DNA from: Basidiobolus meristosporus CBS 931.73
Taxonomy: Eukaryota; Basidiobolomycota; Basidiobolomycetes; Basidiobolales; Basidiobolaceae
Direction: 5' to 3'
Assembly (NCBI GenBank): GCA_002104905.1
Contig: MCFE01000143.1
Location: forward strand, 91,647 to 155,646
Length of the DNA: 64,000 bases
Both the position numbers and the translations under genes were made by a program. Shown here piece after piece: positions 22,101 to 42,247 of the stretch (positions within the stretch are counted from its first letter, which is position 1; every line of letters begins with the position of its first letter). The notes beneath the pieces were generated by a model. The model ran no database searches. It saw nothing but the letters and a program-made list of their open reading frames with translations, and was not told where the DNA came from.

Positions 22101-23920
22101 AGTGACATATTGACAAAGACACCAGCAGTTTAGACACAGAGGTTATTGCACCCATCAGACACCTCACACACCTTGAGTTGTGTAGCTTCTCCCAGGAGTA
22201 CCTCTACACCACCACAATGGTAGTCTCTTGCTTTATCCCACGAATGTTGCAGAAGTGGATGAAGAGTTTTGAGGTATATTCTCCACCATTGTCAGAGCGT
22301 ATTTTCTTGATTTTTTCACCAGTTTCTCTCTCAACCATGGCTTTAAACTCCCTGAGCTTAGACAGAGCTTCTTCCTTTCTCTCCATGAAGTAGACCCATG
22401 TGTATCTTGTATAATCATCAATAAAAGTGACTAAATACTTCATCCCGCCAAAGGATAAATTTTGCATAGGTCCACACAGATCTGAGTGAATTAGATCTAA
22501 TTTTTTCTTAGTTTTTGATTAACCCAGAGCTCTTGAACAATTGTCTGGCTTGTTTCCCATATATGCAGGCTTCACAGTGCTCCAAATCAGCTGGGGGATC
22601 AACTTTCACTCCAGAAATTAGCGGATCTTTGATCATTTTATGCAAATAATCAAAATTGATGTGTCCAAATCTCCTGTGCCAAAGCATTGGTGTTTCTTCA
22701 TTTAAGTTACTTATATTGGCCTCCAAATATGATGGAATGTAAGTCAACTTGTATAGATTCTGATCTCTGATGCCCAAAGCAATATGGGCACCATTTTGAT
22801 CAGTGATCCTGCATCCAGAGTTGTCAAAACCAAAACTGAGTCCTTCTGCTGTGGCCTTGCTTACAGAGAGTAGGTTCTTGGCTATTTCTGGTACATAGAG
22901 TACTTCTTTGAAGGTCAGTGTATGGCTTCCTTCACTGCTTCTTAGGTTTACTTGGATAGTTCCTTCTCCCAATGCATCAAGTGTTCTGTTGTCACCCATG
23001 AAAACCTTCTTAATTGGAATTTCTTGATATTGGGTAAAAAGTTCTTTTTGGTGTGTAAAGTGTTGAGAAGCTCCAGAGTCAATATACCACGTCTGAGAAT
23101 CCTTGTTTGTGGTCATATTTAGTGCAGATATGAATAGTCTATCTTCAGTTGTTGCAGCATTTCCATATTCAGGCTTCTTTTGCTGATAATCTCTGTTTTT
23201 GAGACACCGGTCTGATGTGTGTCCTTTCCTTTTGGAGTAGTTGCAAAATAGGTTGCTGTTGCCTTTGTAGGGTCTTGGGTACCTCCTTTGTTGGTTATCA
23301 TTGCTTATTAAAGCATTTTCTTCTTCCTTCTTATTGGCGCTTGATTTTCTTAATTCTTCATCCAGGAGCCTTCCATATACGTAATTTAAGGTCAAATCTT
23401 CAGTTCTGGACTCTAGGGCTGATACAAGGCCCTGAAACCTGTCTGTCAGGCTATTCAGGATGGTAACTATCATATCCTCATCAGTAGTTAGTACACCCAC
23501 AGATTCCATCTCATCTACCAGCAGGGTAATTCTGTTAATTAGATTTTTCATTTCTTCTCCTGGCAGCATCTTTGTAGTAAAGAATTTTTGTCTCAGATAC
23601 ATTTTCTTGGCAGCTGAACATGACTGGTAGGTGTCTTCTAATGCCTTCCAGGCATTCTTTGCCGTTTTTGTTCTTGAGCATTGAATTAGCAATTTGTCCT
23701 TGACATTAAGGCAAATGCAGTTAAAGGCACTTTGTTCTTTCTTCTGGTACTTTAAGGCTTCCTCTCCCACATTTTTAGGAGGGCATTCTTCTCCCATGAC
23801 AATATCTCAAAGGCCTCTTTCTTGTGGCAGCATCTTCATCTTCACCTTCCACACTTGGTGGCTAGATCCATCCAACTTTTCAGCAGAGGGAAAAATTCCA
23901 GTAATAACAGTAGTAGACCT
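19167..23920 (-). pseudogene. copia gag-pol polyprotein, broken (copy I)
   Basis: In order on the minus strand: Gag from 23,920, where the ATG present in copies II and III reads AGG; an in-frame TGA near 23,806 after 'MLPQERGL'; and a zinc knuckle with one cysteine lost (CNYSKRKGHTSDRC). Then come the protease WYIDSGASQHF near 23,080 and the gag-pre-integrase block (LWHRRFGHINFDYL) near 22,680. A -1-type frameshift lies near 22,525, just before 'KLDLIHSDLCGPM'. The integrase core (22,467-22,220) is cut by an insertion, and the C-terminal half resumes in the open stretch 21,350-19,167. That stretch carries reverse transcriptase (LALYVDDLIIATNN) and RNase H to the end (DILTKPLARDKF). The 727-codon 3' part is still open, which suggests fairly recent death. 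Confidence 0.85.
21413..22216. repeat. LTR-like insertion of about 0.8 kb inside copia integrase
   Basis: This foreign stretch separates 'GIKQETT' from 'YSPQQNGVAEQ' of integrase. It begins TGTGGTAGGG and ends CCACCACA, as an LTR would (TG..CA). ATGGTA is seen just left (21,404-21,409) and just right (22,217-22,222), so a target duplication is likely but not perfectly placed. It has no coding content. It is probably a solo LTR of another family. Confidence 0.55.
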
Positions 23921-25610: not shown

Positions 25611-26268
25611 AAAGGCTATAGTCAGGTGAAAAGCTTAGTACAAAAAATCCGATAGTCACAGTTGAGTTATTATGCGCAGTGCTAACAATCTGACAGAAAT
25701 CATTTCCATGTAATATGCTGTCCCAATTATGAATTGATTATAATGCATGTTGCCCTAATCATTTATGATTTCTGTTGACTACAACTATCCAAATACAGTC
25801 GAATGCGGTTGACTGCAGCCAATTATTGCCAGAGGCCAGAATAGTGGCTGCTGATGTTTTAGTTAGATTGCTCTAGTGCTAGATTCCCATGATAGCTCAA
25901 ATCGAATAAAATATGAAGTAATCATGATTTGATTCAATACAATCCATTTAATGGAAACATCATCTATACGTCTCATGAATATCATATGCTTTATAGATAT
26001 CCCATTATATAATGGCATATGATATCAGAGAGTCATGTGACTGAAAATCAAGCGTAAATTAAAGCAGTCCCACTATGAATGATAAAATATCCATTCAACA
26101 AGGTCAGCATGACCGTTTCCCTTGATCATTTCTCTTGTGCATAAGACCCTATTGGACTTTTCTCAATATTGCTTACACTGAGCTTGAACTAATTCAAAGT
26201 ACGTATGTACCGAGGCACCCGATGTAAGCCTGGGTTTCTAACACGGTTTGCTCAAGTAGTATCTTGCT
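25611..26268. other. Intergenic boundary between transposon nest and gene block
   Basis: No repeat, RNA gene or convincing reading frame is seen. It should include the promoter of the lipase gene starting at 26,269. No TATA-like motif stands out. Confidence 0.4.
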
Positions 26269-27544
26269 ATGGAAACCTACACTGTCTCAGTAAAAGATAC
26301 TTGGCACGAGCATGATGGCGTGACTTTCTACACAAAACTCTTTGAGGTAGAATACATTAACTTAATTTCAAGGCTTCTTCTCATTCATCCGACCACTGTA
26401 GGTAACTCCTAAACCAAGAGCCACGGTGACACTCATTCACGGATTGGGAGAGCACTGTGACCGTTATGAGGAGCTTGGAAAATACTTAGGAGAAAGAGGA
26501 ATTCAAGTGTTTACATACGACCAACGTGGTTTTGGGAAAACCGGGTACCGTAACCCTCCCTTGGGCCATAGCGGTGGTTTCGAAAAGGTGCTACAGGATG
26601 TCGATTACTTTGTAGAGCGGTCGAGCTTTTCGGATCTGTCGGTCCCTCATTTTCTGGTATTGGCGAGTTAGATATGTAAGCATCCGACCCGATTGTAATA
26701 TTAGATCGTTTTGTAGTTTGGTCACTCGATGGGTGGTATGATTGTTTTAAATTACGGTGCCGTGTATAGCACACGCGAAATAGCCGGAATCATCGCATCA
26801 GGTGCAGTAGGGCAATTGATTAGTAAGTGAATGTTGGCTATAGCTGATACTTTGGCTACGTAGCACCCTGTATTCAAGCTGGGAAAGGTTATATCGTTTC
26901 TGGCATCCAAGCTAAAGCTCTCGGGTTCTTGGGATCGATCCCGATTATCAACACGCTTCCGATTCAATCCAACATCAGTTAAGGCCTATACCCAGTGCGT
27001 CATCACGTCCACCAGTACTAACCCGTCCAGTAGAGGCTGAACATCTCAGTTTTAATGAAAAATCCAATCAAGAGTATATGGGCAGCATGTATAACTTTGG
27101 CTACGCATCACTCAGTTGCCGTAAGTGGCCCATCACCTCATTTTATCACCCGCCATGTTAACTCGCGCTTCAGTTTCGGATATCTTTTATTACGGGAAAC
27201 TACTTCTCACTGATCGTTACAAAAACTTTTTGACTCCAGTGCTGCTGACACATGGTGAACAAGACCAGATCACCAGGTAAACAGAGTGTCATACTTTTAT
27301 ATCTTGCGATATACTAATCAATGCAATAGCTGTGCGGCAACAACAGAGTTTCATGACCTTCTGGAAGCAGACAAAACTCTCAAGATCTGGCCAAACTCAG
27401 CTCACGAACGTACGTAAACCCAAATGCTATCAATCATTCAGCCATTAATATAAGTTTGCAGTGCACTTCGAGGACAACAAACAGGAAGTAATGGAGTACT
27501 ATTACCAATGGCTGGACAACAAAATTCACCGGGAAGAAAAGTAG
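26269..27544 (+). CDS. Monoacylglycerol-lipase-like alpha/beta hydrolase (8 exons)
   Basis: Exons 26269-26346, 26402-26656, 26717-26801, 26864-26977, 27031-27120, 27174-27276, 27330-27409 and 27462-27544 join to 888 bp in one frame, 295 residues. All seven introns are 52-62 bp GT..AG; the fourth has a CTAAC branch site. The protein shows the serine-hydrolase pattern of the monoglyceride lipase (yeast Yju3) family. It has the LIHGLGEHCDRY oxyanion segment, YDQRGFGKT, nucleophile Ser115 in GHSMGG, acid Asp238 in THGEQDQIT and His267 in SAHE. The family releases glycerol and fatty acid from monoacylglycerols, often at lipid droplets. It has no signal peptide, so it is probably intracellular. Length is near the family's roughly 300. 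The middle lid region (residues 175-215) is divergent, so the exact substrate is uncertain. The upstream 25 kb are transposons; downstream is the small secreted protein cluster. Confidence 0.85.
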
Positions 27545-27872
27545 GCCAGAAGCTCGAATTCTTATGTTCTGCATAGCCTAATTTGCATCTATTTTCCAGC
27601 TGGCCCAGCTTGGCTAAAGCATCCAATATTGACTGAGGTGCTCTTCCAGGATTCACTAAGGGTATCTAACTATAACGGACTATTAAACCGCAAATTCTGT
27701 CAATACTACAAGCTGTCTACGCCTTTCAAGGTCCCGATATTGATAAACAATTGGGCATCAATGATTAAATATATACGTATCCCCACATGGTTTTCAATTT
27801 GAGTGAAACTGGTTGTAGAGATAAAAGAATCATTGCCATGACCTTTATTCAGTATTGCATGCATTTTCACAT
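27545..27872. other. Intergenic, convergent 3' flanks
   Basis: It lies between the lipase stop and the end of the first small secreted protein gene, which reads towards it. No motif stands out. Confidence 0.4.
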
Positions 27873-28136
27873 TTACCAATTATCCTCGTCATGGTGGCCC
27901 GATTCATCGCCAGGACCATCCTCATCCTGGTCGTCTCCGTAGTCACAGAATGGACCAGTGGCATCCTTTTCCCGGCAAACTGTCTGCTCTCCGCACATAG
28001 TCTCCACCCATTCATCGTTGACGCAGCGGATAATAGCTCGGTCATCCTCTGTGGAGCATTTACTTTCAAGGTTGTTGCAAGCCAGAACAATCTGACTCAA
28101 AAGAGCAAGCACAAGAATGGTTGCGTGGAACTTCAT
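27873..28136 (-). CDS. Small secreted six-cysteine protein 1, short acidic tail
   Basis: The protein has 87 residues. A signal peptide (residues 1-19, hydrophobic ATILVLALLSQIVLA) is followed at once by the family core C-x6-C-x10-C-x9-C-x5-C-x9-C (residues 20-64), which contains the strongly conserved 'IIRCVNDEWVET' and 'TGPFC'. The tail here is short and acidic with a few histidines (GHHDEDNW) and has no HWDGD repeat. Six cysteines predict three disulfides in an extracellular protein. The spacing is loosely like small chitin-binding (CBM19-type) modules, but that is only a guess. No intron. It is divergent from member 2 across a 353-bp shared promoter region. Confidence 0.8.
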   Translation of the reverse strand: MKFHATILVLALLSQIVLACNNLESKCSTEDDRAIIRCVNDEWVETMCGEQTVCREKDATGPFCDYGDDQDEDGPGDESGHHDEDNW

Positions 28137-28489
28137 TAGATTATTGCCAGTGATGAAGAGTGCGTGATCTATTTATGTACAGCTTTGGAATCTGAGGTCC
28201 TTTCAATTCAGGAGCAGTCGCATGCTAATACTGCACAGCTTGCGTTGCCTTTGCAGAGGAAACCCCTTGGTCCCCCGTACTAAATAGTCAAATCGTTCTG
28301 GATAATTCAATACCCTGGGACCTCATGGATGAAAACTATTTAAGCAAAAAGCCTAATATAGAGTAATCTGCTAGAGACTTGTGGAAGTATAGGGCGAGGT
28401 TGGCTTATAAAAGTGGGGCATCTTCTATCGATGACACTCAACAAGTGCCAATTCCTCCACAGTATCGTCTCCGTTGAAAGATTACACCA
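28137..28489. promoter_or_regulatory. Shared promoter region of secreted proteins 1 and 2
   Basis: Head-to-head genes start at 28,136 (minus) and 28,490 (plus). TTATAAAAG at 28,405-28,412 is a TATA-like box 78 bp before the right gene. Minus-strand CATAAATAG near 28,170 could serve the left gene. The AAAGCAGGG motif of the array genes is not seen. Confidence 0.45.
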
Positions 28490-28765
28490 ATGAAACTCTA
28501 CGCCACGCTGATATTCTTCGCTATTTTGAGTCAGGTTGCGCATGCCTGTCAAAGTATGGAAAGTAAGTGCTCCACTGAGGATGATCGTACAATCGTTCGC
28601 TGCGTCAATGATGAATGGGTCGAAACCAAATGTGGAGAGGGAACAGTCTGCCAAGAAAAGCGTCATACTGGGCCGTTCTGCGATTATGAAGGACATGATG
28701 ACTGGGAGGAGGATAATGATGGAGAAGATCATGGTGATGGTGATGATGAAGAGAGCGAAGATTAA
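28490..28765 (+). CDS. Small secreted six-cysteine protein 2, acidic tail
   Basis: 91 residues: signal peptide 1-19 (ending QVAHA), then the six-cysteine core with 'CQSMESKCSTEDDRTIVRC'. The tail is dominated by Asp and Glu with two histidines (DHGDGDDEESED). It is the closest relative of member 1, so the pair probably arose by inverted duplication. AATAAA at 28,801-28,806 is a likely polyadenylation signal. The start ATG is 78 bp after a TATA-like box and gives the signal peptide directly. Confidence 0.8.
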   Translation: MKLYATLIFFAILSQVAHACQSMESKCSTEDDRTIVRCVNDEWVETKCGEGTVCQEKRHTGPFCDYEGHDDWEEDNDGEDHGDGDDEESED

Positions 28766-29536
28766 AAAGATGCAAGACGTTCGAGTTGTATTTGGCTTAC
28801 AATAAACAGAAGATATTCTCTTGAACAATGTTTCTTTTCGCCAGATTTAAAGGATCTCGTGCCGAAAATATCCATCTTTTGTCATCTAAATTGTGACTAC
28901 TGTGACAGGTAATATCCCGAGTACTTGGATATTTGAAGATTGTATGTTACCACACGAGTGGTACTGAAGATTGTATATTACCATGCGAGTGGAGGTGCTT
29001 TCATCTTGGCCCACCTCCATCTCCTAATCACCCTGCCATCATGTAATACTAAGCTTTGTACATAAACCTGTAAGTTCAGCTTCAAAGGTGATAGTAGATA
29101 GGATTACTGCACATATTGCACTTCTGCATGGAAATGCTCCATTACTCTACCCGTCGCAGTTTCTGCTACTCCACAATTCTGCAGCTGCACATTTACAATT
29201 ATAGAAATTAAGTTGGTAACTCGTTATCACACCATTTGCCGTCATTCCAAGCTTTTGCAGTGGTGTCTTACTCCTTAATACCTAAATTTATCTCTCCATT
29301 TCACTCCAGTGCTAGGGGGTCTGTGATACTTCTCCGGATGGATGTAGGGGATTTGCAATGGTAAGGACTTTTAGAAGCGTATTGGTCATTGATACGCAGT
29401 TATGGGGAAAGGAGCACTATATTTAGAAACTATTAGTAACCACATAGAGATACCATTTACTACTATAAATACCTTGAAAGCTACTTCCCAAATGACATAC
29501 TCACAGCCTATCCTCTACTTCAACTACGATCATACC
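28766..29536. other. Intergenic; 31-bp tandem repeat and promoter of secreted protein 3
   Basis: It contains the 3' flank of member 2, a two-unit tandem repeat at 28,934-28,992, and TATAAATA at 29,464-29,471, 66 bp before the next start. No other coding signal is seen. Confidence 0.5.
28934..28992 (+). repeat. 31-bp direct repeat, two units
   Basis: Units begin TGAAGATTGTATGTTACCA at 28,934 and TGAAGATTGTATATTACCA at 28,965. Each ends in GCGAGTGG or CACGAGTGG. It lies just downstream of secreted protein 2. No function is recognised. Confidence 0.7.
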
Positions 29537-29806
29537 ATGAGAATCTGCACTGCATTTGTTGTTCTTGCCTTTCTGAGCCAGGTAGTGATGGGATGCACCC
29601 AAAACGAAAGCAAATGTTCCTCAGAGGATGCCCAGACTATCGTCCGATGCGTCAACGATGGCTGGGTTGATACGAAGTGCGGACAAGGAACAGTCTGTCG
29701 TCAAGGTGACCACACTGGGCCATTTTGTGATCACGAGGATGTGGAAGACGATCAAGAGTGGGGCCAAGATGATGATGAGGAGGAGGAGGAGGAGGACAAT
29801 GAATGA
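29537..29806 (+). CDS. Small secreted six-cysteine protein 3, Glu-rich tail
   Basis: 89 residues from ATG 29,537. An in-frame ATG at 29,402 lies before the TATA-like box, so the shorter start, which places the signal peptide first, is preferred. Signal peptide 1-20 (VVLAFLSQVVMG), then the six-cysteine core (CTQNESKCSSEDAQTIVRC). The tail lacks histidine repeats and ends in a run of glutamates encoded by GAG/GAA. AATAAA lies at 29,863-29,870. In tail type it falls between members 1-2 and the His-rich members. Confidence 0.8.
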   Translation: MRICTAFVVLAFLSQVVMGCTQNESKCSSEDAQTIVRCVNDGWVDTKCGQGTVCRQGDHTGPFCDHEDVEDDQEWGQDDDEEEEEEDNE

Positions 29807-29984
29807 TACATCGTATAGTAATAATGATATTATATGTCTACCACTATCCAAATATCCTCTAAATAATAAAGCTCATCAGTAAGTGCAATCAATGCTATGA
29901 ATCTGTGATAATATCATACTATTGGCCATTCTCCTGATACTTCTCGTTGTCACATTAACTATCAGTCCTTGTCATTGTCCCCAT

Positions 29985-30107
29985 CACCGCTTGATCAGAA
30001 GGTCTAGAGCAATTGGTGCAGCATAGACTCTCATGATTCGATTGTTTTATTCGAGGTATTAAAAGCGTTCAACGGCACCCTCGCCTAACCCTTTGCTGAT
30101 TTATATT
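29985..30107 (-). pseudogene. Relic of a secreted protein gene: signal peptide and promoter only
   Basis: On the minus strand, ATG at 30,034 gives MRVYAAPIALDLLIK, matching the signal peptide of the array genes. It then hits a stop where 'SQVVIGC' should be. The cysteine core and tail are missing. Upstream, 30,040-30,107 keeps the 'TTCAACGG' and TATAAATC (30,098-30,107) features of the intact genes. It fits the roughly 1-kb spacing of the array, as one unit before member 4. Confidence 0.65.
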
Positions 30108-30453
30108 CACCAAGTAAAAGCTAAGTTATAGCGCCAACGAAATTTACTCTATTCAGATGAACAACCATAATCCCATCTACTTTCTAGTGAACTATCGTAG
30201 CTTGCAAGTAACTACAAAAAGCTGTGACCATCAAGTATAAATCGTATTGGCATTTGTCCAGATTCGAAAACGTGATCTAATATGGCTATCAAGAATAGCA
30301 CAAGACAGACAAAGGCAAGGTATTGAGACGACAGCTCTTGTGAAATATTACTTTATTATTTAGTACAGCTAGTGTCGGCAGATCTATAAGCTAAAGCAGA
30401 GTTCTTGATACTTCTCTGCAACAATACTAATTTCATATACAGCACAGTCCGGA

Positions 30454-30750
30454 CTAGTGACCATGGTGGCGGTCATCCCAGTGCTCGTCGTGGTCTCCAT
30501 CCCAGTGACCGTCATGATCCCCATCCCAATGATCATCGTGATCCCAGCCATCATGGTCACAGAATGGTCCGGTGTGATCCTCCTCATGACAGACTGTCTC
30601 CTTGCCACACTTCGTCTCCACCCAGTCGTCGTTGACACAGCGGATAATGGTGCGGTCATCCTCGGACGAGCACCGGCTTTCATCGTGGGTGCATCCAATC
30701 ACCACCTGGCTGAGAAAGGCCAAAGCAATCAGTGCAACGTAGACTCTCAT
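30454..30750 (-). CDS. Small secreted six-cysteine protein 4, HWDGD-repeat tail
   Basis: 98 residues. ATG 30,750 is chosen over an in-frame ATG 39 bp upstream because it starts directly with the signal peptide MRVYVALIALAFLSQVVIG. The core is CTHDESRCSSEDDRTIIRC and onward (residues 20-64). The tail from about residue 65 has three HW units of an 8-residue repeat (HWDGDHDG), ending DDRHHGH. Alternating His and Asp with regular Trp suggests a flexible metal-binding arm (Zn, Cu or Ni, or Ca through Asp). That is inference. It is the first gene of the seven-gene minus-strand array. Confidence 0.85.
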   Translation of the reverse strand: MRVYVALIALAFLSQVVIGCTHDESRCSSEDDRTIIRCVNDDWVETKCGKETVCHEEDHTGPFCDHDGWDHDDHWDGDHDGHWDGDHDEHWDDRHHGH

Positions 30751-30820
30751 GATTTGGCTGTTGTATTCGAAATATGGAAAGTAAGGCACTGATGGGTATC
30801 ATTCAACGGCATCCTTGACT

Positions 30821-30930
30821 GATTTATATTCACCAGCTCACGCGATATGAGCTTCCGTTAAATTGTAGTGCCAATAGAACTCACTGAATACAAATGAATC
30901 GCATCGATCATCCTTACCCTGCTTTGATAG
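30821..30930 (-). promoter_or_regulatory. Conserved promoter module of secreted protein 4
   Basis: On the minus strand CTATCAAAGCAGGG (30,917-30,930) is followed about 90 bp later by AATATAAATC (30,821-30,830), 71 bp before the ATG. The same pair recurs upstream of members 5 to 10. Confidence 0.55.
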
Positions 30931-31439
30931 CCTAGACTCCTTAATTTTGCCAACTGACTGCTACTGCACACGCACTCGCCAATTTCCCCCGCCTGATGGA
31001 TGTCTTGGAGAGACTCGAGTGGATAAAAGAGACCCTATGTCATTCGGCCTTGACGCATATTCCAGAAGCATACTGCATTTAGGTGATGTTGTGAAGACTG
31101 GTGTCATGTGACATAAAAAGTGGCTATCCGACTCGGGATTTCCTGGATAGCATCAGTCTACATTCCATTGAAGTTTATTTGATAAATGCCATACCTTCAG
31201 CTAAATATTATTGTGAAATATGCTTAGCACTTGGTATAACAACACGGCGTCATCAAGTATGTATCACAACCACAATCCTCATGATTCAAACATGCGATTG
31301 GATGTTACAGGACAGACGAAGGTAAGGTGAATAAAGACAACAAATGATGTAGGAAGTGATTTATTATTAAGTGCAATCAGCGACAGCAGGTCTTTAAACC
31401 AGTACAAAGCTCTTTATATCGTTCACAAAGTAATCCTGA

Positions 31440-31760
31440 CTAGTGATCACGGTGGCGGTCATCCCAGTGCTCGTCGCGGTCTCCATCCCAGTGACCGTCG
31501 TGATCCCCATCCCAGTGACCGTCATGATCCCCATCCCAATGATCATCGTGATCCCAGCCATCATGGTCGCAGAATGGCCCGGTGTGATCCTCCTCACGAC
31601 AGACTGTCTCCTTGCCACACTTCGTCTCCACCCAGTCGTCGTTGACACAGCGGATAATGGTGCGGTCATCCTCGGACGAGCACCGGCTTTCATTGTGAGT
31701 GCATCCAATCACCACCTGGCTGAGAAACGCCAAAGCAATCAGTGCAACGTAGACTCTCAT
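31440..31760 (-). CDS. Small secreted six-cysteine protein 5, longest array tail
   Basis: 106 residues. It is identical to member 4 in nearly all of the signal peptide and core. The tail has four HW units instead of three, the extra one being a 24-bp (8-codon) repeat gain. It ends DRDEHWDDRHRDH. Flanking DNA on both sides matches member 4, so this is a recent tandem copy. No intron. Confidence 0.85.
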   Translation of the reverse strand: MRVYVALIALAFLSQVVIGCTHNESRCSSEDDRTIIRCVNDDWVETKCGKETVCREEDHTGPFCDHDGWDHDDHWDGDHDGHWDGDHDGHWDGDRDEHWDDRHRDH

Positions 31761-31830
31761 GGTTTGGCTGTTGTATTTGAAGTATGGAGAGTAAGATACT
31801 GATGGGTATCATTCAACGGTATCCTTGACT

Positions 31831-31940
31831 GATTTATATTCACCAGCTCACGCGATATGGGCTTCCGTTAAATTGTAGTGCCAATAGAACTCACTGAATA
31901 CAAATGAATCGCATCGATCATCCTTACCCTGCTTTAGTAG
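31831..31940 (-). promoter_or_regulatory. Conserved promoter module of secreted protein 5
   Basis: CTACTAAAGCAGGG (31,927-31,940, minus) and AATATAAATC (31,831-31,840) sit as in the neighbouring genes, 71 bp before the ATG at 31,760. Confidence 0.55.
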
Positions 31941-32452
31941 CCTAAACCCTGTAATTTTACTGACTAGCAGCTGCTACTACTACATACAAACACACAAATC
32001 CCCCGCATGGTGAATATCTTTGAGTGGCTCGAACAGATGAAGGAGACCTCATGTGGATCGACAACAGTGCGTATACCAACCCCATACAGTATTTAAGTGA
32101 TCTGGTGAAGGATGGTGTCAAGTGGCATCAAGTTATCTTGCATACCCCCATTATACATTCTCTTGAACTATCTGCTGATTTTCAATGTCGTGAATGCCAT
32201 TTTAGCAGTTACTACAAAAAGCTGTGGTGATCAAGCACGTACTGTAGCGGCAATTTCGAATTTCGAATATATGATCCTATATTGTTGTCGAGAATAGCTC
32301 AAACCAGGCAACGACAAATTACTGAGATAAGAACTATTATACGATATTATTTTATTATTAGGCATTATCTGTGTCATCAGGTCTAGAAGCCGACATAAGG
32401 TTCTCAATGTTTTTCTTCGACAATACCACTATCATAGACAACGCAATCTTGA

Positions 32453-32749
32453 CTAGTGATCATGGTGGCCGTCATCCCAGTGCTGGTCATCGTCTCCATC
32501 CCAGTGCTCATCGTGGTCCCCTTCCCAATGGTCATCGTGATCCCAGCCATCATGGTCGCAGAATGGCCCGGTGTGATCCTCCTCACGACAGACTGTCTCC
32601 TTGCCACACCTCGTCTCCACCCAGTCGTCGTTGACACAGCGGATAATGGTGCGGTCGTCGTCGGACGAGCACCGGCTTTCATCGTGGGTGCATCCAATCA
32701 CCACCTGAATCAGAAGGGCCAAAGCAGCCAGCACAACATAGACTCTCAT
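32453..32749 (-). CDS. Small secreted six-cysteine protein 6
   Basis: 98 residues. The signal peptide differs from members 4 and 5 (MRVYVVLAALALLIQVVIG). The core has Asp for Glu in CSSDDDRTIIRC and Arg for Lys in VETRC. The tail has three HW units with variant fillers (HWEGDHDE, HWDGDDDQ, HWDDGHHDH). Its 5' flank is the most diverged of the array: the AAAGCAGGG motif (32,913-32,926) is kept but the TATA-like box is weak. Confidence 0.85.
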   Translation of the reverse strand: MRVYVVLAALALLIQVVIGCTHDESRCSSDDDRTIIRCVNDDWVETRCGKETVCREEDHTGPFCDHDGWDHDDHWEGDHDEHWDGDDDQHWDDGHHDH

Positions 32750-33458
32750 GATTCGATCGTTGTTTTGGCAATAACAAAAAAGCGGTGCTGATGGGTTTCA
32801 TTCAACGAAATTTTGGCTCTTATATCTACGGACTCATGCAATGCTAGCTTCCGCAAAGTTGTAGTGCCAACAGAATTCACTTTATTTAAACGAATAGCAT
32901 CATGCTTCTTTTCCCTGCTTTGATAGTTTAGACTCCTTATTTTTACAAAATGCCTAGCACTATCACTACTACACACACGCACGCACGCCCATAAATCCCC
33001 CCTGCTAGTAGAACGTCTGGAAGTGTATCGAACGGATATAAAAGACGCTGTGTTGATCGACACTAATGCATACTAATTTCACACTGCATTCGAGTGATGT
33101 TGCGAAAGATGGTGACATGAGACATAAGAGAGTAGTCACCTGACACGCGTTGTCTTAGATAGCCTCATACTACTATTGATTTTAATATGGTATGTTACTT
33201 TACTTTCTATGCATTCTAGCACAGTAAGGGTAGCAGCTACTAAAAACATATGACCATCAAGTACATCGTAGTGGTGATTGTTCACATTCGAATACGTGAT
33301 CTGATATAGCCATCCAAAATGACAAAGGACAAGTATTACAAGATTGCATGAAATTATTTATTGTTAAGTACTATCAGTATAAGCAGGCCTATAAATCAAC
33401 GCAGAGTTCCGAATACCTTTCTACAACAATGCTGGCATTATATGATAGGCAGCTCTAG

Positions 33459-33755
33459 CTAGTGATCGTGATGGCGGTCATTCCGGTGCTCGTCGTGGTC
33501 TCCATCCCAGTGACCGTCATGATCCCCATCCCAATGATCATCGTGATCCCAGCCATCATGGTCACAGAATGGCCCGGTGTGATCCTCCTCACGACAGACT
33601 GTCTCCTTGCCACACTTCGTCTCCACCCAGTCGTCGTTGACACAGCGGATAATGGTGCGGTCATCCTCGGACGAGCACCGGCTTTCATTGTGGGTGCATC
33701 CGATCACCACCTGGCTGAGAAAGGCCAAAGCAATCAGTGCAACGTAGACTCTCAT
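33459..33755 (-). CDS. Small secreted six-cysteine protein 7
   Basis: 98 residues from ATG 33,755 (an upstream in-frame ATG at 33,794 is not used, as in member 4). Core as in members 4 and 5. The tail has two full HW units and a third changed to HRNDRHHDH, so one tryptophan is lost. The flanks match members 4 and 5 closely, with the promoter pair at 33,826-33,835 and 33,922-33,935. Confidence 0.85.
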   Translation of the reverse strand: MRVYVALIALAFLSQVVIGCTHNESRCSSEDDRTIIRCVNDDWVETKCGKETVCREEDHTGPFCDHDGWDHDDHWDGDHDGHWDGDHDEHRNDRHHDH

Positions 33756-33962
33756 GGTTTGGCTGTTGTATTTGAAGTATGGAGAGTAAGGCACTGATGG
33801 GTATCATTCAACGGCATCCTTGACTGATTTATATTCACCAGCTCACGCGATATGGGCTTCCGTTAAATTGTAGTGCCAATAGAACTCACTGAATACAAAT
33901 GAATCGCATCGATCATCCTTACCCTGCTTTAGTAGCCTAGATTCCCTAATTCTATTCACCGG

Positions 33963-33998
33963 TTACTACTGCTACTACTACTACTACTACACACACAT
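33963..33998. repeat. CTA triplet and CA microsatellite
   Basis: A run of CTA units is followed by ACACACAC. It is in the spacer between secreted proteins 7 and 8. Confidence 0.7.
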
Positions 33999-34413
33999 GC
34001 AAGCGGCTCGAATGGATGACGGAGAATATCCGTTTATCGGCACCAGTGCATGCAGCAACCTCATACTGCATTTGTGTGGCGTTTTGAAGGATGGTGTCAA
34101 GTAGCATCAGCAAATGATCCTGAATAACCCCACTCTACTTTCTATTGAACTATCGTTGATTGCAAATAACTACAAAAGGCTGTGACCATCAAGTATAAAT
34201 CGTATTGGCATTTGTCCGGATTCGAATACGTGATCTTATATGGCTATCAAGAATAGCACAAGACAGGCAAAGGCAAGGTATTGAGAGACGAGAGCTCTCG
34301 TGTAATATTGCTTTATTAATAAGCGCAACCAGTGGTAGCCTATCTATAAATAAACACAGAACCCTCGTTGTTTTTCTTCGATAATACTAATTTCACAGAC
34401 AACACAGCCTTGA

Positions 34414-34710
34414 CTAGTGATCATGGTGACGATCATCCCAATCCTGGTCGCGATCTCCATCCCAGTGCTCATCGTGGTCCCCTTCCCAATGATCATCATG
34501 ATCCCAGCCATCATGGTCGCAGAATGGCCCGGTGTGATCCTCCTCACGACAGACTGTCTCCTTGCCACACTTCGTCTCCACCCAGTCGTCGTTGACACAG
34601 CGGATAATGGTGCGGTCATCCTCGGACGAGCACCGGCTTTCATTGTGGGTGCATCCGATCACCACTTGGCTCAGAAGGGCTAGAACAATTAGTGCGGCGT
34701 AGACTTTCAT
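34414..34710 (-). CDS. Small secreted six-cysteine protein 8
   Basis: 98 residues. The signal peptide MKVYAALIVLALLSQVVIG is shared with member 10, and the core with members 7, 9 and 10. The tail HWEGDHDEHWDGDRDQDW has two HW units and a third read as DW, and is identical in sequence to the member 9 tail. Its upstream DNA is nearly identical to that of member 10 and unlike that of member 9. Its coding 3' half follows member 9. It is thus a mosaic. Confidence 0.85.
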   Translation of the reverse strand: MKVYAALIVLALLSQVVIGCTHNESRCSSEDDRTIIRCVNDDWVETKCGKETVCREEDHTGPFCDHDGWDHDDHWEGDHDEHWDGDRDQDWDDRHHDH

Positions 34711-35115
34711 GGCTTGCCAGTTGTATTCGGAGAAACGTAATCGCTAGTTCGATGTGTACCAGCTTACGTGACCATTGTCCGATTTATATTCGCTCGCCCT
34801 TGCAACGTGATATCCCGTGAGCCCATGATACCAATGGGACTTGCTGTAGTTAAATGGTTTGCATCGATCGCCTTTTCCCTGCTTTAGTAGTGTGGGTTAC
34901 CTTCGTTTTCTAACCCTAACTCCATCCTTCTGCACGTACCCACTACCCCTAAATGATACATATCTCTGAGAGACTTGAATGGCTGTCAGGGACTACATGT
35001 TGATCGCACTAGTACCTACGCTCCACCCCCACATCAAACTAGGGCTGGGCTACGAATGATGGTGCCATCTGGGATAACAGACTGGCTGCCTCAGTAACGT
35101 TCACGTGGATAGCTA
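34680..35115. repeat. Upstream segment shared with secreted protein 10 (copy 1)
   Basis: From the start of gene 8 to about 35,115 the sequence is nearly identical to 37,010-37,455, upstream of gene 10. It includes the TATA-like box (34,781-34,790) and CTACTAAAGCAGGG (34,877-34,890). Beyond about 35,150 the two diverge. Confidence 0.75.
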
Positions 35116-35695
35116 TGTGATATTTTCTATTTCATTACTGACTGGGCATCTCATTTGAAATGTTGCAAATGTTATAGTTGTGGCAGCTAAATCCTTCACA
35201 GGCATTAGTAAAGTTTGTTGCACCCTTAGACAAGATTCATTTAAACGGTGCTTACAGTACCAGAATGTTTGTGATAACACTAGTATAGACGTTATGTGTA
35301 GCACAGGTTTTTTTGCACTCATCTTCCCAATGCTTACTATGGTTTCAATCTTAATGGCAATGAAGTGCATTTAGGGTTCCTAACTTCAACATATATTAAT
35401 ACAGTATGTTATTTTACTTTATATACATTCTAGCTCAGTAAGAATAGCAGCTACAATAAACATATATGACTTTCAAGCACATCATAGTGGTGATTGTCCA
35501 AATTCGAATACGTGATCTAATATAGCTATCAAGAATAGCACAAGACAGATAAAGGCAAGGTATTGAGAGACGACAGCTTTTGTGCGATATTGCTTTATTG
35601 CTAAATGCAACCAGTGTCGGCGTATCTATAAAGCGATACAGAATTCTGGCTGTTTTTCTTCGATAATACTAATTTCACAGACAACACAGCCTTGA
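35116..35695. other. Array spacer without recognised gene
   Basis: The left part (35,150-35,380) is unique. The right part (35,500-35,690) repeats the 3' flank found next to members 4, 7 and 8 ('GGCTATCAAGAATAGCACAA' and onward). Confidence 0.4.
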
Positions 35696-35992
35696 CTAGT
35701 GATCATGGTGACGATCATCCCAATCCTGGTCGCGATCTCCATCCCAGTGCTCATCGTGGTCCCCTTCCCAATGATCATCATGATCCCAGCCATCATGGTC
35801 GCAGAATGGCCCGGTGTGATCCTCCTCACGACAGACTGTCTCCTTGCCACACTTCGTCTCCACCCAGTCGTCGTTGACACAGCGGATAATGGTGCGGTCA
35901 TCCTCGGACGAGCACCGGCTTTCATTGTGGGTGCATCCGATCACCACTTGGCTCAGAAGGGATAGAACAATTAATGCAGCGAAGACTCTCAT
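35696..35992 (-). CDS. Small secreted six-cysteine protein 9
   Basis: 98 residues from ATG 35,992. A longer in-frame start at 36,052 adds 20 non-hydrophobic residues before the signal peptide and is rejected. The signal peptide MRVFAALIVLSLLSQVVIG is slightly different. Core and tail match member 8 residue for residue from the first cysteine on. The promoter pair is present but weaker (TATATTT at 36,063; CTAAAGCAGG at 36,155-36,167). Confidence 0.85.
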   Translation of the reverse strand: MRVFAALIVLSLLSQVVIGCTHNESRCSSEDDRTIIRCVNDDWVETKCGKETVCREEDHTGPFCDHDGWDHDDHWEGDHDEHWDGDRDQDWDDRHHDH

Positions 35993-36752
35993 GGTTTGCC
36001 AGTTATATTCGGAGAGATAAAAGTCTTGATGATTAGCATTCAACAACACCAATTCTCAATTTATATTTCTTCAGCTTCTCAGTATAGAAGCACAAGAGTT
36101 TTTTGCGCCAATGGCACTTTGCGCTTGTAAATGAACCGCATTGATCATCCTTTTCCTGCTTTAGTTATTTGGATATACCTCTTTTACTTCAGAGTTTCTA
36201 TCACACGTTTGAATCCTCCCCCCCCCCAAAAAAAATAACGGCGATTATTGTGCAGCTCTGTTGAATGTAAGGGGTATGATGATCAGTACTAGTATATATA
36301 CATCCCACTCTAAAAGTGCAACACTATAAATGAGGGTCATATATTATTCAACCTACCGTTCATTAAGTAGATGTTTTCATGAGCAATTTCACTTAACATT
36401 TTTATCAAACTGCAGCTAGGAAGGTATGTTCATGTTTGAGTCGTAATATCTAAACTCACAATAGTGTTATTGAAGCGAACCATCCCTATAGTCTGCATTT
36501 GATTCAGTCAAAATTTTGAGTGTCAATATGGCTGTAGCAAACGTATTTCGCTGACTATTTACGATATTCAAACATATCAATTTATCTTGTAGTATAAACA
36601 CTGCGAAAGATATTTATGTAGAGTATTGAGTAACAACGGTGCAACATGTACCATTTTATTGAATGCGATCAGTTTCAATAGATTTATGAATCTACATAAA
36701 GCAATTGATGATTCTCTTAAATAAAGGGTTGACCATATACAGTCGAGATTGA
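35993..36752. other. Array spacer
   Basis: It holds the promoter of gene 9, a C/A homopolymer stretch near 36,218-36,236, and otherwise AT-rich DNA with no recognised gene. Confidence 0.4.
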
Positions 36753-37040
36753 TTAGTGGTCATCCTCCCAGTGCTCGTTGTGGTCTCCATCCCAGTGCTC
36801 ATCATGATCCCCTTCCCAATGATCATCATGATCCCAGCCATCATGGTCGCAGAATGGCCCGGTGTGATCCTCCTCACGACAGACTGTCTCCTTGCCACAC
36901 TTCGTCTCCACCCAGTCGTCGTTGACACAGCGGATAATGGTGCGGTCATCCTCGGACGAGCACCGGCTTTCATTGTGGGTGCATCCGATCACCACTTGGC
37001 TCAGAAGGGCTAGAACAATTAGTGCGGCGTAGACTTTCAT
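36753..37040 (-). CDS. Small secreted six-cysteine protein 10
   Basis: 95 residues, the shortest of the array. Signal peptide and core are as in member 8. The tail has three HW units (HWEGDHDE, HWDGDHNE, HWEDDH) and ends early, without the RHHDH end. It is the last intact gene of the same-strand array. Confidence 0.85.
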   Translation of the reverse strand: MKVYAALIVLALLSQVVIGCTHNESRCSSEDDRTIIRCVNDDWVETKCGKETVCREEDHTGPFCDHDGWDHDDHWEGDHDEHWDGDHNEHWEDDH

Positions 37041-37455
37041 GGCTTGCCAGTTGTATTCGGAGAAACGTAATCGCTAGTTCGATGCGTACCAGCTTACGTG
37101 ACCATTGTCCGATTTATATTCGCTCGCCCTTGCAACGTGATATCCCGTGAGCCCATGATACCAATGGGACTTGCTGTAGTTAAATGGTTTGCATCGATCG
37201 CCTTTTCCCTGCTTTAGTAGTGTGGGTTACCTTCGTTTTCTGACCCTAACTCCATCCTTCTGCACGTACCCACCACCCCTAAATGATGCATATCTCTGAG
37301 AGACTTGAATGGCTGTCAGGGACTATATGTTGATCGCACTAGTACCTACGCTCCACCCCCACATCAAACTAGGGCTGGGCTACGAATGATGGTGCCATCT
37401 GGGATAACAGACTGGCTGCCTCAGTAACGTTCACGTGGATAGCTATGTGATATTT
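37010..37455. repeat. Upstream segment shared with secreted protein 8 (copy 2)
   Basis: Nearly identical partner of 34,680-35,115, differing at only a few positions. It marks a recent duplication or gene conversion. It includes AATATAAATC (37,111-37,120, minus) and CTACTAAAGCAGGG (37,207-37,220). Confidence 0.75.
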
Positions 37456-37736
37456 TCTATTTCATTACTAATTGAGCATCTCGTTTGACGTGATGCCAAT
37501 GTTGGACTCGCACTAGCTAAGTATAGAGTTTAAACTATAAACAGGTGTAATGTAAACACAAGCAAGTAAGCATAAAGAAACTTCATATCTAAGTATGTCT
37601 TTTACCATTTGATGTCCAAAACGAGCTTTAAGAAGTGCATGCATTTATATGAATAGTCGCAGCAGGCCTATGAATCTATAGAGCTCTTAATAGATTGTGA
37701 TAGTGAAGACTGCATCATACATAGTACAGCTTTATT
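37456..37736. other. Intergenic
   Basis: No recognised feature. Confidence 0.35.
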
Positions 37737-37890
37737 AGTGCCCATCTTCACAATGCTTGACATGGTCCCCGCCGTCAGCATGGCCCTCACACCGATGCCG
37801 GTGATGGTCATCTCAGTGGCCAATGGTGCGCTCATCCTCGGAAGAGTACTAGCTTTCAATTGCGCATCCAACCATCACTTGGCCCAGTAA
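37737..37890 (-). pseudogene. Relic of a secreted protein gene lacking the cysteine core
   Basis: On the minus strand 'GCAIES' is followed by a stop, then 'YSSEDERTIGH', then another stop and a His/Asp/Gly-rich tail ('DDHHRHR..EGHADGGDHVKHCEDGH') that ends in TAA. It therefore keeps the first cysteine, the SSED.RTI segment and a tail, but the middle of the core is deleted and the signal peptide is lost or unreadable. It lies between the minus-strand array and the two plus-strand genes. Confidence 0.65.
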
Positions 37891-38656
37891 ATTCTTATTA
37901 CTCTGGTATACTTCTATTTTCAACTACCAAAGTCCCATCTTTACCTCATTGTGGGCCTACCAGCTATCAGTCAATTATAAATAATCGTCCCTTAGGATTT
38001 GACTATGATCAACCTCTGAATCTCTTGAAACACACATTTAGATATAGGTGGCTCGTTTCTATTCTGTCGGCTCCTATAGCACCATGAAGTACAAAAAGGT
38101 TGAACCCTCGAAGGTGATGCAACATATTTTGGTTGGCTCAAGTCTATATATCCGCATTGTTGGAGCATCAAATTGACAAGCATTCATTCCGACTTCTTTA
38201 CATGGTAGCTGTATGCTACATTTCCGTGTGATTTCAATCCTCATGGTATGCAACATACCCTCCTGTAATCCACCTCACAGCACACCTCTAGATATGCATT
38301 ATTGCTCCTGAATTCCAATTTCTCGCAGCACAAATGGTTAGTAAATCACCACTGGCCCCTACCTGGGCAAATAAGCTTGTGCTCTTTACTTTCGTTGCTC
38401 ACGTTCTCAGGGGATATAGATCAATTCGGAAATTGGCTGGATATTCGATTTTGCCTTAACGTACTAGCGGCAATCACACTCAAACCACAGTATTGTGCAT
38501 AGCAATGGTTTCTTCTTGTAGGTGCATAGGCAAAGATGTACATAAGTCGGCCCACTCTCTCAAGAATTCATTAAACAATCGATTTTCACCTCGACATCAA
38601 TATTGCACCCCCAAAAATCAAGCTAGACGGCATCTCTAACATATTCACAAGTCCAA
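37891..38656. other. Intergenic; promoter of secreted protein 11
   Basis: No recognised gene. The last 100 bases are A/C-rich with 'CAAGTCCAA' directly before the ATG. No clear TATA box is seen. Confidence 0.4.
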
Positions 38657-38995
38657 ATGAAAGTAATTATATCTCTATTCGCCCTTGCCCTTTTGAGTCA
38701 TGCTGTGATCGGATGTAGCACTAATGAAAGCAGATGCTCCTCTGATGATGACCGCACTATTGTTCGCTGCGTTAATGATGAATGGGTAGAGACCAAATGT
38801 GGTGTGGAGACCGTTTGTCGCGAAGAAGAACACACCGGGCCATTCTGTGACCACGAGGACTGGGATCATGATGACCATTGGGATGGCGACCATGACGATC
38901 ATTGGGATGGTGACCATGACGATCATTGGGACGCCCATGACGGTGACCACCATGACGACAGACATGGGGATGATGATCACGATGATGATTATTGA
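38657..38995 (+). CDS. Small secreted six-cysteine protein 11, long His/Asp tail
   Basis: 112 residues: signal peptide MKVIISLFALALLSHAVIG, core CSTNESRCSSDDDRTIVRC onward, then a tail of about 48 residues. The tail has three HWDGDHDD-type units, then DGDHHDDRHGDDDHDDDY. The core is more distant from the array genes than they are from each other, so it is an older duplicate. AATAAA lies at 39,052-39,057. Confidence 0.85.
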   Translation: MKVIISLFALALLSHAVIGCSTNESRCSSDDDRTIVRCVNDEWVETKCGVETVCREEEHTGPFCDHEDWDHDDHWDGDHDDHWDGDHDDHWDAHDGDHHDDRHGDDDHDDDY

Positions 38996-39557
38996 GGTGG
39001 TCAATGATTTTCCTATTATTGGCGACAATTGCATTCTCATGAACATATCAGAATAAAGTTAATCATTCCGTTCCTCATCCATTTGCATTGGGACTAGCTG
39101 TTTTTACGAATTTATGATAGTATATGTTTATCTTTATTTATGATGGTTTATCAACAATACGAGTAATTCAACTATATGGCCAGCAATAATTAGCAACTAA
39201 TACAAGTGTACATGAGGTATGTCTTCTATAGCCAGATTTTGCCATGCAATCAATCAAACATACAGCAGGATGTAATGAGGCGATATGATTTCATTGGTCA
39301 AATATCATCGGTGTATGGACTGGCTTTTTGGGAAATGCCATATGCACTCCTATCTCCCAAACTCATGTACTATGGCAGCAATGTGAATGTGCATGATACA
39401 TCTTGGGCAAGTCTCTCAGTATACTATTTAAGGCCGTTGCTTTACTTCTACTCACTCACACTCAATCTTCATATTAGCATCTACTGCGCACACACAAACA
39501 GCATACACATCAAGCAAACTAGATACATCCTACCTACAAGCACTCAGGAAAACCATC
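38996..39557. other. Intergenic; promoter of secreted protein 12
   Basis: CTATTTAAGG at 39,424-39,433 is a possible TATA-like element. The 100 bases before the ATG are rich in CA (CACACACAAACAGC), typical of a fungal 5' leader. An open frame at 39,206-39,628 overlaps the next gene out of frame and is not supported. Confidence 0.4.
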
Positions 39558-39926
39558 ATGAGATTCTATGCCACTTTACTTGCTCTTGCTCTCTTGAGCC
39601 AAGCTGCGATCGGCTGTACCCACAATGAAAGCAAGTGCTCCGAGAAAGACGATCGCACTATTGTCCGTTGTGTCAACGATGACTGGGTAGAGACCAAGTG
39701 CGGTGTTGAAACTGTTTGCCGCGAAGAAGAGCACACCGGGCCATTCTGTGACCACGAGGACTGGGATCATGATGACCATTGGGATGGTGACCATGATGAT
39801 CATTGGGATGGCGACCACGACGATCATTGGGATGGCGACCACGACGACCACCATGATGACCACCATGACGGCCATGAAGACTGGGATCATGACGACGGGC
39901 ACTGGGATGAGCATGGTGATCATTAA
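39558..39926 (+). CDS. Small secreted six-cysteine protein 12, longest tail
   Basis: 122 residues, the longest member. Signal peptide MRFYATLLALALLSQAAIG. In the core the SS of the others is replaced: CTHNESKCSEKDDRTIVRC. The tail is about 58 residues with three HWDGDHDD units, then HHDDHHDGHEDWDHDDGHW. Well over half of the tail is His or Asp. The DNA repeats closely (GATCATTGGGATGGCGACC), so unit number can change by slippage. AATAAA lies at 39,987-39,992. Confidence 0.85.
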   Translation: MRFYATLLALALLSQAAIGCTHNESKCSEKDDRTIVRCVNDDWVETKCGVETVCREEEHTGPFCDHEDWDHDDHWDGDHDDHWDGDHDDHWDGDHDDHHDDHHDGHEDWDHDDGHWDEHGDH

Positions 39927-40185
39927 GCTAGTCTAAGAGATCAGAGTATCAGTTGCATCGCTATGCCTCAAGTAACATTCATATCAATAAACAAGTTATA
40001 CCTGACAATCTCATCTATCTGGAAAACTGAGAAAGTACTCAGCGCTAGATTGCAATATGCTAGAAGAATACCATATAATCAATAACCTTGGCACGTTCAT
40101 TGGGGAACGTTCTTTACAAGATATGTTCGCTTATATTCCATCCGTGATACGAGACAAATAGGTGTCTCTATACTCCAATAGGATA
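39927..40185. other. Intergenic
   Basis: 3' flank of secreted protein 12. Nothing else is recognised. Confidence 0.35.
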
Positions 40186-40443
40186 TCACGTTTGCACCAT
40201 CAGAATATTCTGGTATACTGATCTTGATATTACACAGCGTATCCCGTTCACTTCATTCCATTCGCTAACCAACTTCAATAAGATTTGCTTATTCCGAAGA
40301 GCGAATTTCACCCCATGATTCATAGAGAAGGTACCCTCATCGAATGTCTCAACAGCAAGTTGGCTAAGAGCATATGCATCAACTGGACCGTTCGTAACAA
40401 GGAATGTCACACGAGGCCCAGGAGTGATTGTACTGATATCCAT
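40186..40443 (-). CDS. Possible small protein or exon, unrecognised
   Basis: An open frame of 85 codons (MDISTITPGPRVTFLVTNG and onward) with fairly ordinary composition and no overlap with another gene. No domain, signal peptide or homolog in the window is recognised. It could be a remnant or an exon of a gene whose other parts I cannot define. The evidence is only openness and composition. Confidence 0.25.
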   Translation of the reverse strand: MDISTITPGPRVTFLVTNGPVDAYALSQLAVETFDEGTFSMNHGVKFALRNKQILLKLVSEWNEVNGIRCVISRSVYQNILMVQT

Positions 40444-40600
40444 GATAACAACACAAGTGTAAGCGAGATGACACGAGCCAACTGGCCAGGTTAGCTTGAA
40501 ATTGAGGGATTTTATTTGACATGAGGGGGTTAAACAGTGAAGGATTATGGGATATTTATAAAATTAATTTCACTATTGCCGATGTTCAAACTTGGGTGAT

Positions 40601-42247
40601 TTAATTGAATTCCTTCTTCTCTTCAGAAAGCTCTCGGAGTTTAGCCTCTCTGTCCTCCTTGTAAGTATACTTGGTGGACAAGAAGATGAATACGAGATTG
40701 GCAGCAAGGCCGATACCGCAGTAGAGGAAGTACTTGGGAGGACCCTGCATAGAAGTTCCCACCAAAGCTTCTTCAATGGCAGTGACAACCAAGTTACCGA
40801 GGGAGACGGTGAGGAGCCAGAAGGATGAAGAGGTTGACTTCATTTGGCGACCGACCTGGGTATATGTGAATTGGAGACCGGTGGGGGAGACCATGGTCTC
40901 ACCAAGGGAGAGAAGGGCCCATTGGGGCAATTGCCAGGCTCCGTGCAGACAGTTAGGGCAGCTGGTGACCTTGCCACTCTTATCATGAGTACCATCAAAT
41001 TTGGATTGCACAATGTATTGGAGACCACCGGACAAAGCAAAGGAGAGGATCACAAGGAAGAAGCCAACAGCCATACGACGGAGGAGGTAGAACCGGATAC
41101 CACGTCTCTCGAGGAATGGGTAGAGAACCTTGGCGCAGAGGGGAACGAAGATCAGAATGAAGATGGTGTTGAAGATCGATGACTGTTCAGTAGAGATCTC
41201 GAGGGAGCCCCAGTTCTTGTTCATCATCTCATACTGCTCTTGCCATTCAGTACTTTGCTGATCGTAGATCATCCACCAGAACATGATTGGAAGAATCATG
41301 CCGAACACTTGACCAAACATGCGGATTTCCTCGACGAACAATGGGCCAACCAAGTCCTCGGCGAAGTTCAACCAGTTGCCACGGCGTTGGCGCTCCTCAG
41401 GGGTGGCCGAGGAGTACTTCTTGATGGCGTATACGGTACCCTTAAGCGCCTTCCAGGGAAGGAACTCGCCAATGGCTGGGACAATACGATAATGCTTGAA
41501 GCCCAAGATGAAGATCACCAATGCACATCCGAAAAGGCCAGCTGGAAGAATGAATGCACCAAAGTAACACTGTGAACCGAAGCAAGTAGCCTTATCCTTG
41601 ATCATTGGAGTGATGTATTGCGAGAGCAATGAGCCACTGTTGATGGAAATGTAGAACATGGCGAAGAACCAATCAAGGGCTTTGGTTTGATGAGGGAGAT
41701 ATTGATCACCACCGTGAGAAGAGACACATGGCTTGATACCACCGGTGCCGAGAGCAATCAGGGTCAAGGGAAGCATAGCAGTCCACAAGGGATAAGCGCC
41801 ATAGTTGCTGATCAATCCGTTGATTGAGAAGACAGCCAAAAGGATGGTACCAAGGAAGTAGACCACCGACAGGTAGACAATGGTGTGGTACTTGGCTAGC
41901 CAGGAGTCAGAGATGGCCGCACCGAGGAGGGGGAAGAAGTAACACATCATGTTGAAGGCGTGTGAATTCACCTTAGCCTGGACCGCATTAAGGCCCACGG
42001 CAGTCTTGAAGTATTGTTGAAGAAGATTTTTGATACCATAGAAAGTGAACCGTTCGCAGAACTCGTTGGGGATAATGTACCAAACAGCCTTAGGGATCTT
42101 ATTTGGATTCTCCAAAAGTTGTTGGTCAAGCTTTGCATTTAGCTCGCGTTCCAAACGTAAGAGTTCTTCTTCACGTTCAGTGAGTCTGTCGGTAGTACCC
42201 AGCTCCATTTGTTGGAGATTGTGATTGTCCTTCTCGTTTGCAGTCAT
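40601..42247 (-). CDS. POT/PTR2-family proton-coupled peptide transporter A
   Basis: 548 residues, no intron. A charged cytoplasmic N-terminus of about 50 residues is followed by about 12 predicted membrane spans. It has the POT hallmarks: NEFCERFTFYG (E-x-x-E-R, proton coupling), GTGGIKPCVSSHGGDQY, FFAMFYISINSGS and the late TGLQFTYTQVGRQMKST loop. The family imports di- and tripeptides with protons across the plasma membrane, supplying nitrogen. It is closest to C and D, with a long stretch after residue 270 almost identical to them. It differs from them in the first half and the last 20 residues. It is the only transporter of the block on the minus strand. TATAAAG (minus) lies near 42,293-42,299. 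Confidence 0.9.
   Translation of the reverse strand: MTANEKDNHNLQQMELGTTDRLTEREEELLRLERELNAKLDQQLLENPNKIPKAVWYIIPNEFCERFTFYGIKNLLQQYFKTAVGLNAVQAKVNSHAFNMMCYFFPLLGAAISDSWLAKYHTIVYLSVVYFLGTILLAVFSINGLISNYGAYPLWTAMLPLTLIALGTGGIKPCVSSHGGDQYLPHQTKALDWFFAMFYISINSGSLLSQYITPMIKDKATCFGSQCYFGAFILPAGLFGCALVIFILGFKHYRIVPAIGEFLPWKALKGTVYAIKKYSSATPEERQRRGNWLNFAEDLVGPLFVEEIRMFGQVFGMILPIMFWWMIYDQQSTEWQEQYEMMNKNWGSLEISTEQSSIFNTIFILIFVPLCAKVLYPFLERRGIRFYLLRRMAVGFFLVILSFALSGGLQYIVQSKFDGTHDKSGKVTSCPNCLHGAWQLPQWALLSLGETMVSPTGLQFTYTQVGRQMKSTSSSFWLLTVSLGNLVVTAIEEALVGTSMQGPPKYFLYCGIGLAANLVFIFLSTKYTYKEDREAKLRELSEEKKEFN

Follow-up and report, generated by a model that had tools for sequence, protein, structure and literature searches.

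The window analysed here is a 64,000-nucleotide stretch of the Basidiobolus meristosporus CBS 931.73 genome (contig MCFE01000143.1, positions 91,647–155,646), and it raises the question of what is done by a tandem array of genes encoding small, probably secreted proteins, each with a six-cysteine head and a charged tail. The array occupies window positions 27873–39926 on this contig (C362 below), in an 89.0-Mb genome of 1311 contigs. It consists of twelve open frames (g1–g12), all uninterrupted from ATG to stop, and two relics recovered by tblastn and blastn, in agreement with the initial annotation. The answer that we favour, at a little short of an even bet, is that the proteins are tethered to chitin and hold divalent metal ions in their tails.

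Leader and six-cysteine head

All twelve predicted proteins start with a 19-residue leader. By hand criteria the leaders have Lys or Arg at position 2, a best ten-residue hydropathy of 2.3–3.4, and a cleavage context of Ala or Val at −3 and Ala or Gly at −1 (12/12), features that bear out the signal peptide proposed in the initial annotation and point to secretion. The predicted mature proteins are small (68–103 residues) and the cysteine spacing of their heads, C-x6-C-x10-C-x9-C-x5-C-x9-C, is identical in all twelve, covering 45 residues from first to sixth cysteine; three disulfides probably lock the head. Columns invariant in the 11 aligned heads (g9 was left out, its head being identical to that of g8) include VND, WV.T, TVC and TGPFCD, and the invariant core described earlier (VND, WV.T and TGPFC) thus stands. 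An N-glycosylation sequon, NES, is present at mature residues 4–6 in eight of the twelve heads.

Relationship of the head to CBM19

CBM19 (Pfam PF03427) is a chitin-binding module of fungal chitinases, and the genome is rich in it, with 68 matches listed and 39 of these above the cut-off; none of the 68 is an array gene. Five array proteins were scanned against Pfam, and none reached the CBM_19 gathering score (best 14.5 bits, for g2, vs 20.1). Sub-cut-off rows (E ≤ 10) were returned for two of the five, g2 (E 0.037) and g3 (E 0.064), and at the same threshold there was no CBM_19 row for g1, g5 or g12.

Profile–profile comparison (hhalign) of the 11 array heads with 16 CBM19-type domains from the same genome (set A2) gave 97.3% with E 2e-11; the 16 domains were hand-picked, and at least three of them (C732:47718, C202 and the third C249 copy) are singly under the Pfam cut-off. 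In a shuffle control with the cysteines fixed, 0 of 1000 shuffles scored as high as even the weakest of the 11 heads (24.0 bits, against at most 21.9 for a shuffle). The profile search of the core suggested at the outset thus finds kinship with CBM19-type domains, and the initial view that no named family shares this combination was too strong: judged by sequence, the head is related to the CBM19-type modules that abound in this genome, though it has diverged from them. The hhalign result and the shuffle control lead us to reject the alternative, a six-cysteine family with no kin at all.

Several residues count against membership of CBM19 itself. The first of the three glycines invariant in A2 is absent from all 11 heads, the second is Asp in all 11, and the third is retained in two (g2 and g3); where A2 has a near-invariant Tyr just ahead of the second cysteine, all 11 heads have Ser. 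Because the heads fall short of the Pfam cut-off and depart from the A2 invariant glycines, we do not file them as CBM19 members.

A genome search with g5 returned 46 matches, 21 of them array genes on C362, C874 and C99, with the remaining 25 scoring 37.7 bits or less. The array forms one group with support 98/98 in a tree of 47 rows, built from 50 columns, unrooted, and with 14 of 32 inner branches drawn open; as the second C249 copy of A2 is absent from the listed CBM_19 genome matches and at least three A2 domains are singly under the cut-off, the tree label 'PfamCBM19' is loose. A GH18 chitinase on C483 has a similar C-terminal domain, for which Pfam CBM_19 reports no row. Sequence searches of the PDB with array heads gave either no row or a single chance-level row (E 1.3), and with the CBM19 set only weak rows, of which the best two are chitinase domains (E 0.15 and 0.22). 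In genome contigs of bacteria and archaea 19 stretches fitted the pattern, none of them confirmed as a relative, and none was confirmed in plasmids. Separately, CBM19-type matches also fall in open frames 3574 to 7374 codons long on C865, C489, C580 and C911, which would encode very large secreted or wall proteins.

Predicted fold of the head

The head model has a predicted local distance difference test (pLDDT) score of 88. In the comparison with disulfide folds proposed in the initial annotation, its nearest neighbours are the CBM14 folds of Der p 23, chitotriosidase and Avr4, at middling scores, and a CBM14-like chitin-binding fold is the tentative prediction. Pfam gave no CBM_14 row (E ≤ 10) in the five array proteins scanned, and no array gene is among the 34 CBM_14 genome matches. 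Residues F44 and D46 are present in 21 of 21 array copies and may correspond to the chitin-site Trp100 and Asp102 of Avr4, a pairing read from the range ends of the structural alignment. The suggestion that the head binds a chitin-type surface is favoured by the profile comparison and shuffle control, and more weakly by the predicted fold.

A secreted protein with four tandem CBM19-type domains is encoded on C249 and at two places on C418 (L033); taken whole, the protein clears the Pfam cut-off of CBM_19 and that of CBM_14 alike, linking the two families.

Tails and their conservation

The tails, counted from mature residue 46 onward, are of two kinds. Those of g4–g12 (9/12) are predicted to be disordered, are built of a DHDxHWDG unit with a 24-bp period (Tandem Repeats Finder, TRF) and hold 8–17 His and 3–6 Trp each; those of g1–g3 are short and acidic, with 1–2 His and one Trp. 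A degenerate 21-base tail pattern has 22 exact matches genome-wide, all on C362, C99 or C874. An NCBIfam scan of three proteins returned HvfA on g2 (0.0053) and ZrgA on g12 (0.06), both far under cut-off and taken as composition effects. The simplest order of events puts the acidic tail before the His/Trp repeat, on a tree that is unrooted.

Of 66 pairs, 20 were usable for the head core, with a median dN/dS of 0.10, and 42 for the leader, with a median of 0.21, the pairs not being independent and synonymous change being at or near saturation. For the tails, 24-bp units were taken in register with no motif filter, and the same reservations apply to them. The first three units of g4–g12 (27 units, 19 distinct) differ 124, 149 and 666 times at codon positions 1, 2 and 3 (pN/pS 0.114), and all full units (33 units, 25 distinct) 465, 512 and 1344 times (pN/pS 0.196). 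This third-position excess and the pN/pS of 0.11–0.20 indicate that the tail is conserved as protein, beyond a mere DNA repeat. Its composition and this constraint make it plausible that the tail binds metal.

Array dynamics and relatives elsewhere in the genome

Contig C874 matches window positions 26265–32377 at 99.5%, and C99 matches 36768–39943 at 98.5% and 39388–42195 at 98.4%; from these alignments the two look like a second haplotype broken within the array. C99 carries a hybrid gene whose 3′ half is that of g7 (97–100%) and whose 5′ half is that of g10 (100%), as an unequal crossover exchanging g7–g10 for one hybrid would leave, or possibly a misassembly, as the contig ends inside the array. 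C99 also carries an extra g12-like copy; tail length in the three g12-like genes is 58, 63 and 50 residues.

Relatives on C569, C1308, C724 and C1083 carry acidic tails that lack the Trp/His unit, and those on C542, C801 and C249 have no such tail. Similar heads are encoded on C569 (81500–87000; L029) and C1308 (L030); on C569 the head is followed by a 494-residue Asp/Glu-rich stretch with seven KR-E/D sites and eight THKELAK-type repeats, and we take this protein to resemble a Kex2-processed repeat protein. A second head array lies on C724 (63500–73000; L031), some of its members having long GDD-type tails, with a partial copy on C1083 (L032).

Proposed function and alternatives

In the favoured reading the head would tether the protein to chitin, either that of the fungus's own wall or insect or food chitin in the gut, and the g4–g12 tails would present dense His and Asp able to bind several divalent ions, with Zn or Cu likelier ligands than Ca because of the His. 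The chitin surface would become a metal-loading or metal-buffering layer, and tandem duplication with unequal crossing-over would set copy number and tail length. The chitin half of this reading rests on homology; the metal half and any physiological role are put forward as suggestions. A fuller version, which we hold only tentatively, is a chitin-tethered metal trap in which a diverged chitin-binding head was fused to a tunable His/Asp/Trp repeat and tandemly amplified, copy and repeat number setting the Zn/Cu capacity of wall or gut-borne chitin.

Two observations limit the case for a metal-binding role. The His/Asp-rich tail ascribed to all twelve proteins holds for nine (g4–g12) and fails for g1–g3, and none of the 23 ZIP transporter matches listed for the genome (E ≤ 0.001) is on the array contig.

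The alternative that survives best, though we regard it as doubtful, is an Avr4-like wall shield. The head would then cover chitin of the fungus itself, keeping chitinases off or hiding it from a host, and the acidic/His tail would be a solubilising or repelling brush with incidental metal binding. The predicted head fold resembles that of Avr4, whose role is chitin shielding (PMC6128652), and the recurrence of acidic tails without the His/Trp unit in g1–g3 and in the C569, C1308, C724 and C1083 relatives would make acidity, not His, the common theme. Such a shield leaves the retained His and Trp of g4–g12 unexplained.

Two further alternatives are improbable. Acidic chitin-binding matrix proteins of animals nucleate or bind mineral, and chitin-anchored tails might act in the same way on calcium or phosphate in the walls of spores or capsules; the Asp share of the tails (~32–50%) and the low His content of the long GDD-type tails on C724 are consistent with this, but a His and Trp every eight residues is ill-suited to simple calcium binding, and we know of no mineralised wall in this fungal group. 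A soluble zincophore, which would diffuse, load zinc and be recaptured by a transporter, is about as improbable. It has a parallel in Pra1 of Candida albicans, a zinc-binding protein whose C-terminal tail bears His (PMC3386192), and the row that matches g12 to the zinc-uptake protein ZrgA points the same way, weakly (13 bits vs a cut-off of 185). Against it, no deuterolysin-like domain row was returned by Pfam for the five window proteins scanned, the ZIP matches listed are all off the array contig, and the head suggests chitin tethering rather than transporter docking. A non-functional expansion, with the tail no more than a 24-bp minisatellite drifting inside a duplicated gene, is the least credible: the differing tail lengths of g12 copies and the crossover product in the array would fit, but the twelve intact frames and the third-position excess do not, and a neutral minisatellite tail is rejected by both tail-unit pN/pS values.

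Should the tail bind metal and the head chitin, the array would give a probable amphibian-gut fungus an alternative, anchored in the wall, to the soluble zincophore. The array also provides a family of charged-tail proteins varying through unequal crossing-over. Siderophore activity has been measured in Basidiobolus (PMC7466969); the same paper mentions RNA-seq of B. meristosporus CBS 931.73 and names two other genomes of the genus.

Genomic setting

An AATAAA motif lies 24–97 bases downstream of all twelve genes (Table 1), and eight of the twelve have a TATA-like box 73–84 bases upstream. In the subset of frames scanned, Copia-type frames lie to the left of the array and POT peptide transporters and nitrite reductases to the right. 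Mobile-element frames include a Transposase_21 (2162–2860), a Copia-type reverse transcriptase at 19167 (Pfam; region 19167–23797), and, by eye, gag/protease-like frames at 6281 (6281–6943) and 22508. Intact POT transporter genes are at 40601, 46383 and 49439 (Pfam PTR2), with a similar copy broken over two frames at 53468–55181 (by eye), followed at 55691–62838 by a tandem pair of closely similar nitrite reductase frames that bear a Rieske domain (by eye, with a Pfam scan of the first).

Table 1. Genes and relics of the array, in window coordinates.
Feature	Coordinates	Strand	Description
g1	27873..28136	-	signal peptide, then CBM19-like head and short tail, acidic, with 2 His
g2	28490..28765	+	head nearest CBM19 (Pfam CBM_19 E 0.037, under cut-off), acidic tail (2 His)
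g3	29537..29806	+	CBM19-like head (Pfam CBM_19 E 0.064, under cut-off), Asp/Glu tail (1 His)
relic	29980..30065	-	matches only the 5′ (signal-peptide) end of g4, g6, g7 and g9 (blastn self-comparison)
g4	30454..30750	-	head, His/Asp/Trp tail (10 His of 34)
g5	31440..31760	-	head, His/Asp/Trp tail (10 His of 42)
g6	32453..32749	-	head, His/Asp/Trp tail (9 His of 34)
g7	33459..33755	-	head, His/Asp/Trp tail (10 His of 34); 3′ half common to C99 hybrid gene
g8	34414..34710	-	head, His/Asp/Trp tail (8 His of 34)
g9	35696..35992	-	head, His/Asp/Trp tail (8 His of 34); same predicted mature protein as g8
g10	36753..37040	-	head, His/Asp/Trp tail (8 His of 31); 5′ half common to C99 hybrid gene
relic gene	37738..37923	-	tblastn E 0.003 for 37822–37923 part, 0.69 for whole; also blastn
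g11	38657..38995	+	head, His/Asp/Trp tail (12 His of 48)
g12	39558..39926	+	head, His/Asp/Trp tail of 58 residues, the longest in the window (17 His, 26 Asp, 6 Trp); g12 copies differ in tail length

Comparison with known systems

The array head shares with CBM19 the order of the six cysteines, the Trp of the central hairpin, the TVC loop and CD at the last cysteine, but it is free-standing with a charged tail, whereas CBM19 domains are found on an enzyme or a Ser/Thr-rich protein. Compared with CBM14 (the peritrophin-A fold of Avr4, Der p 23, the chitotriosidase domain and tachycitin) it has Phe for Trp if the pairing with Avr4 is right, and it may connect fungal CBM19 with the CBM14 fold. 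The array proteins resemble Pra1 as probably secreted fungal proteins with a His-bearing C-terminal tail, but differ from it in having another head, no ZIP match on the contig, and a multi-copy array.
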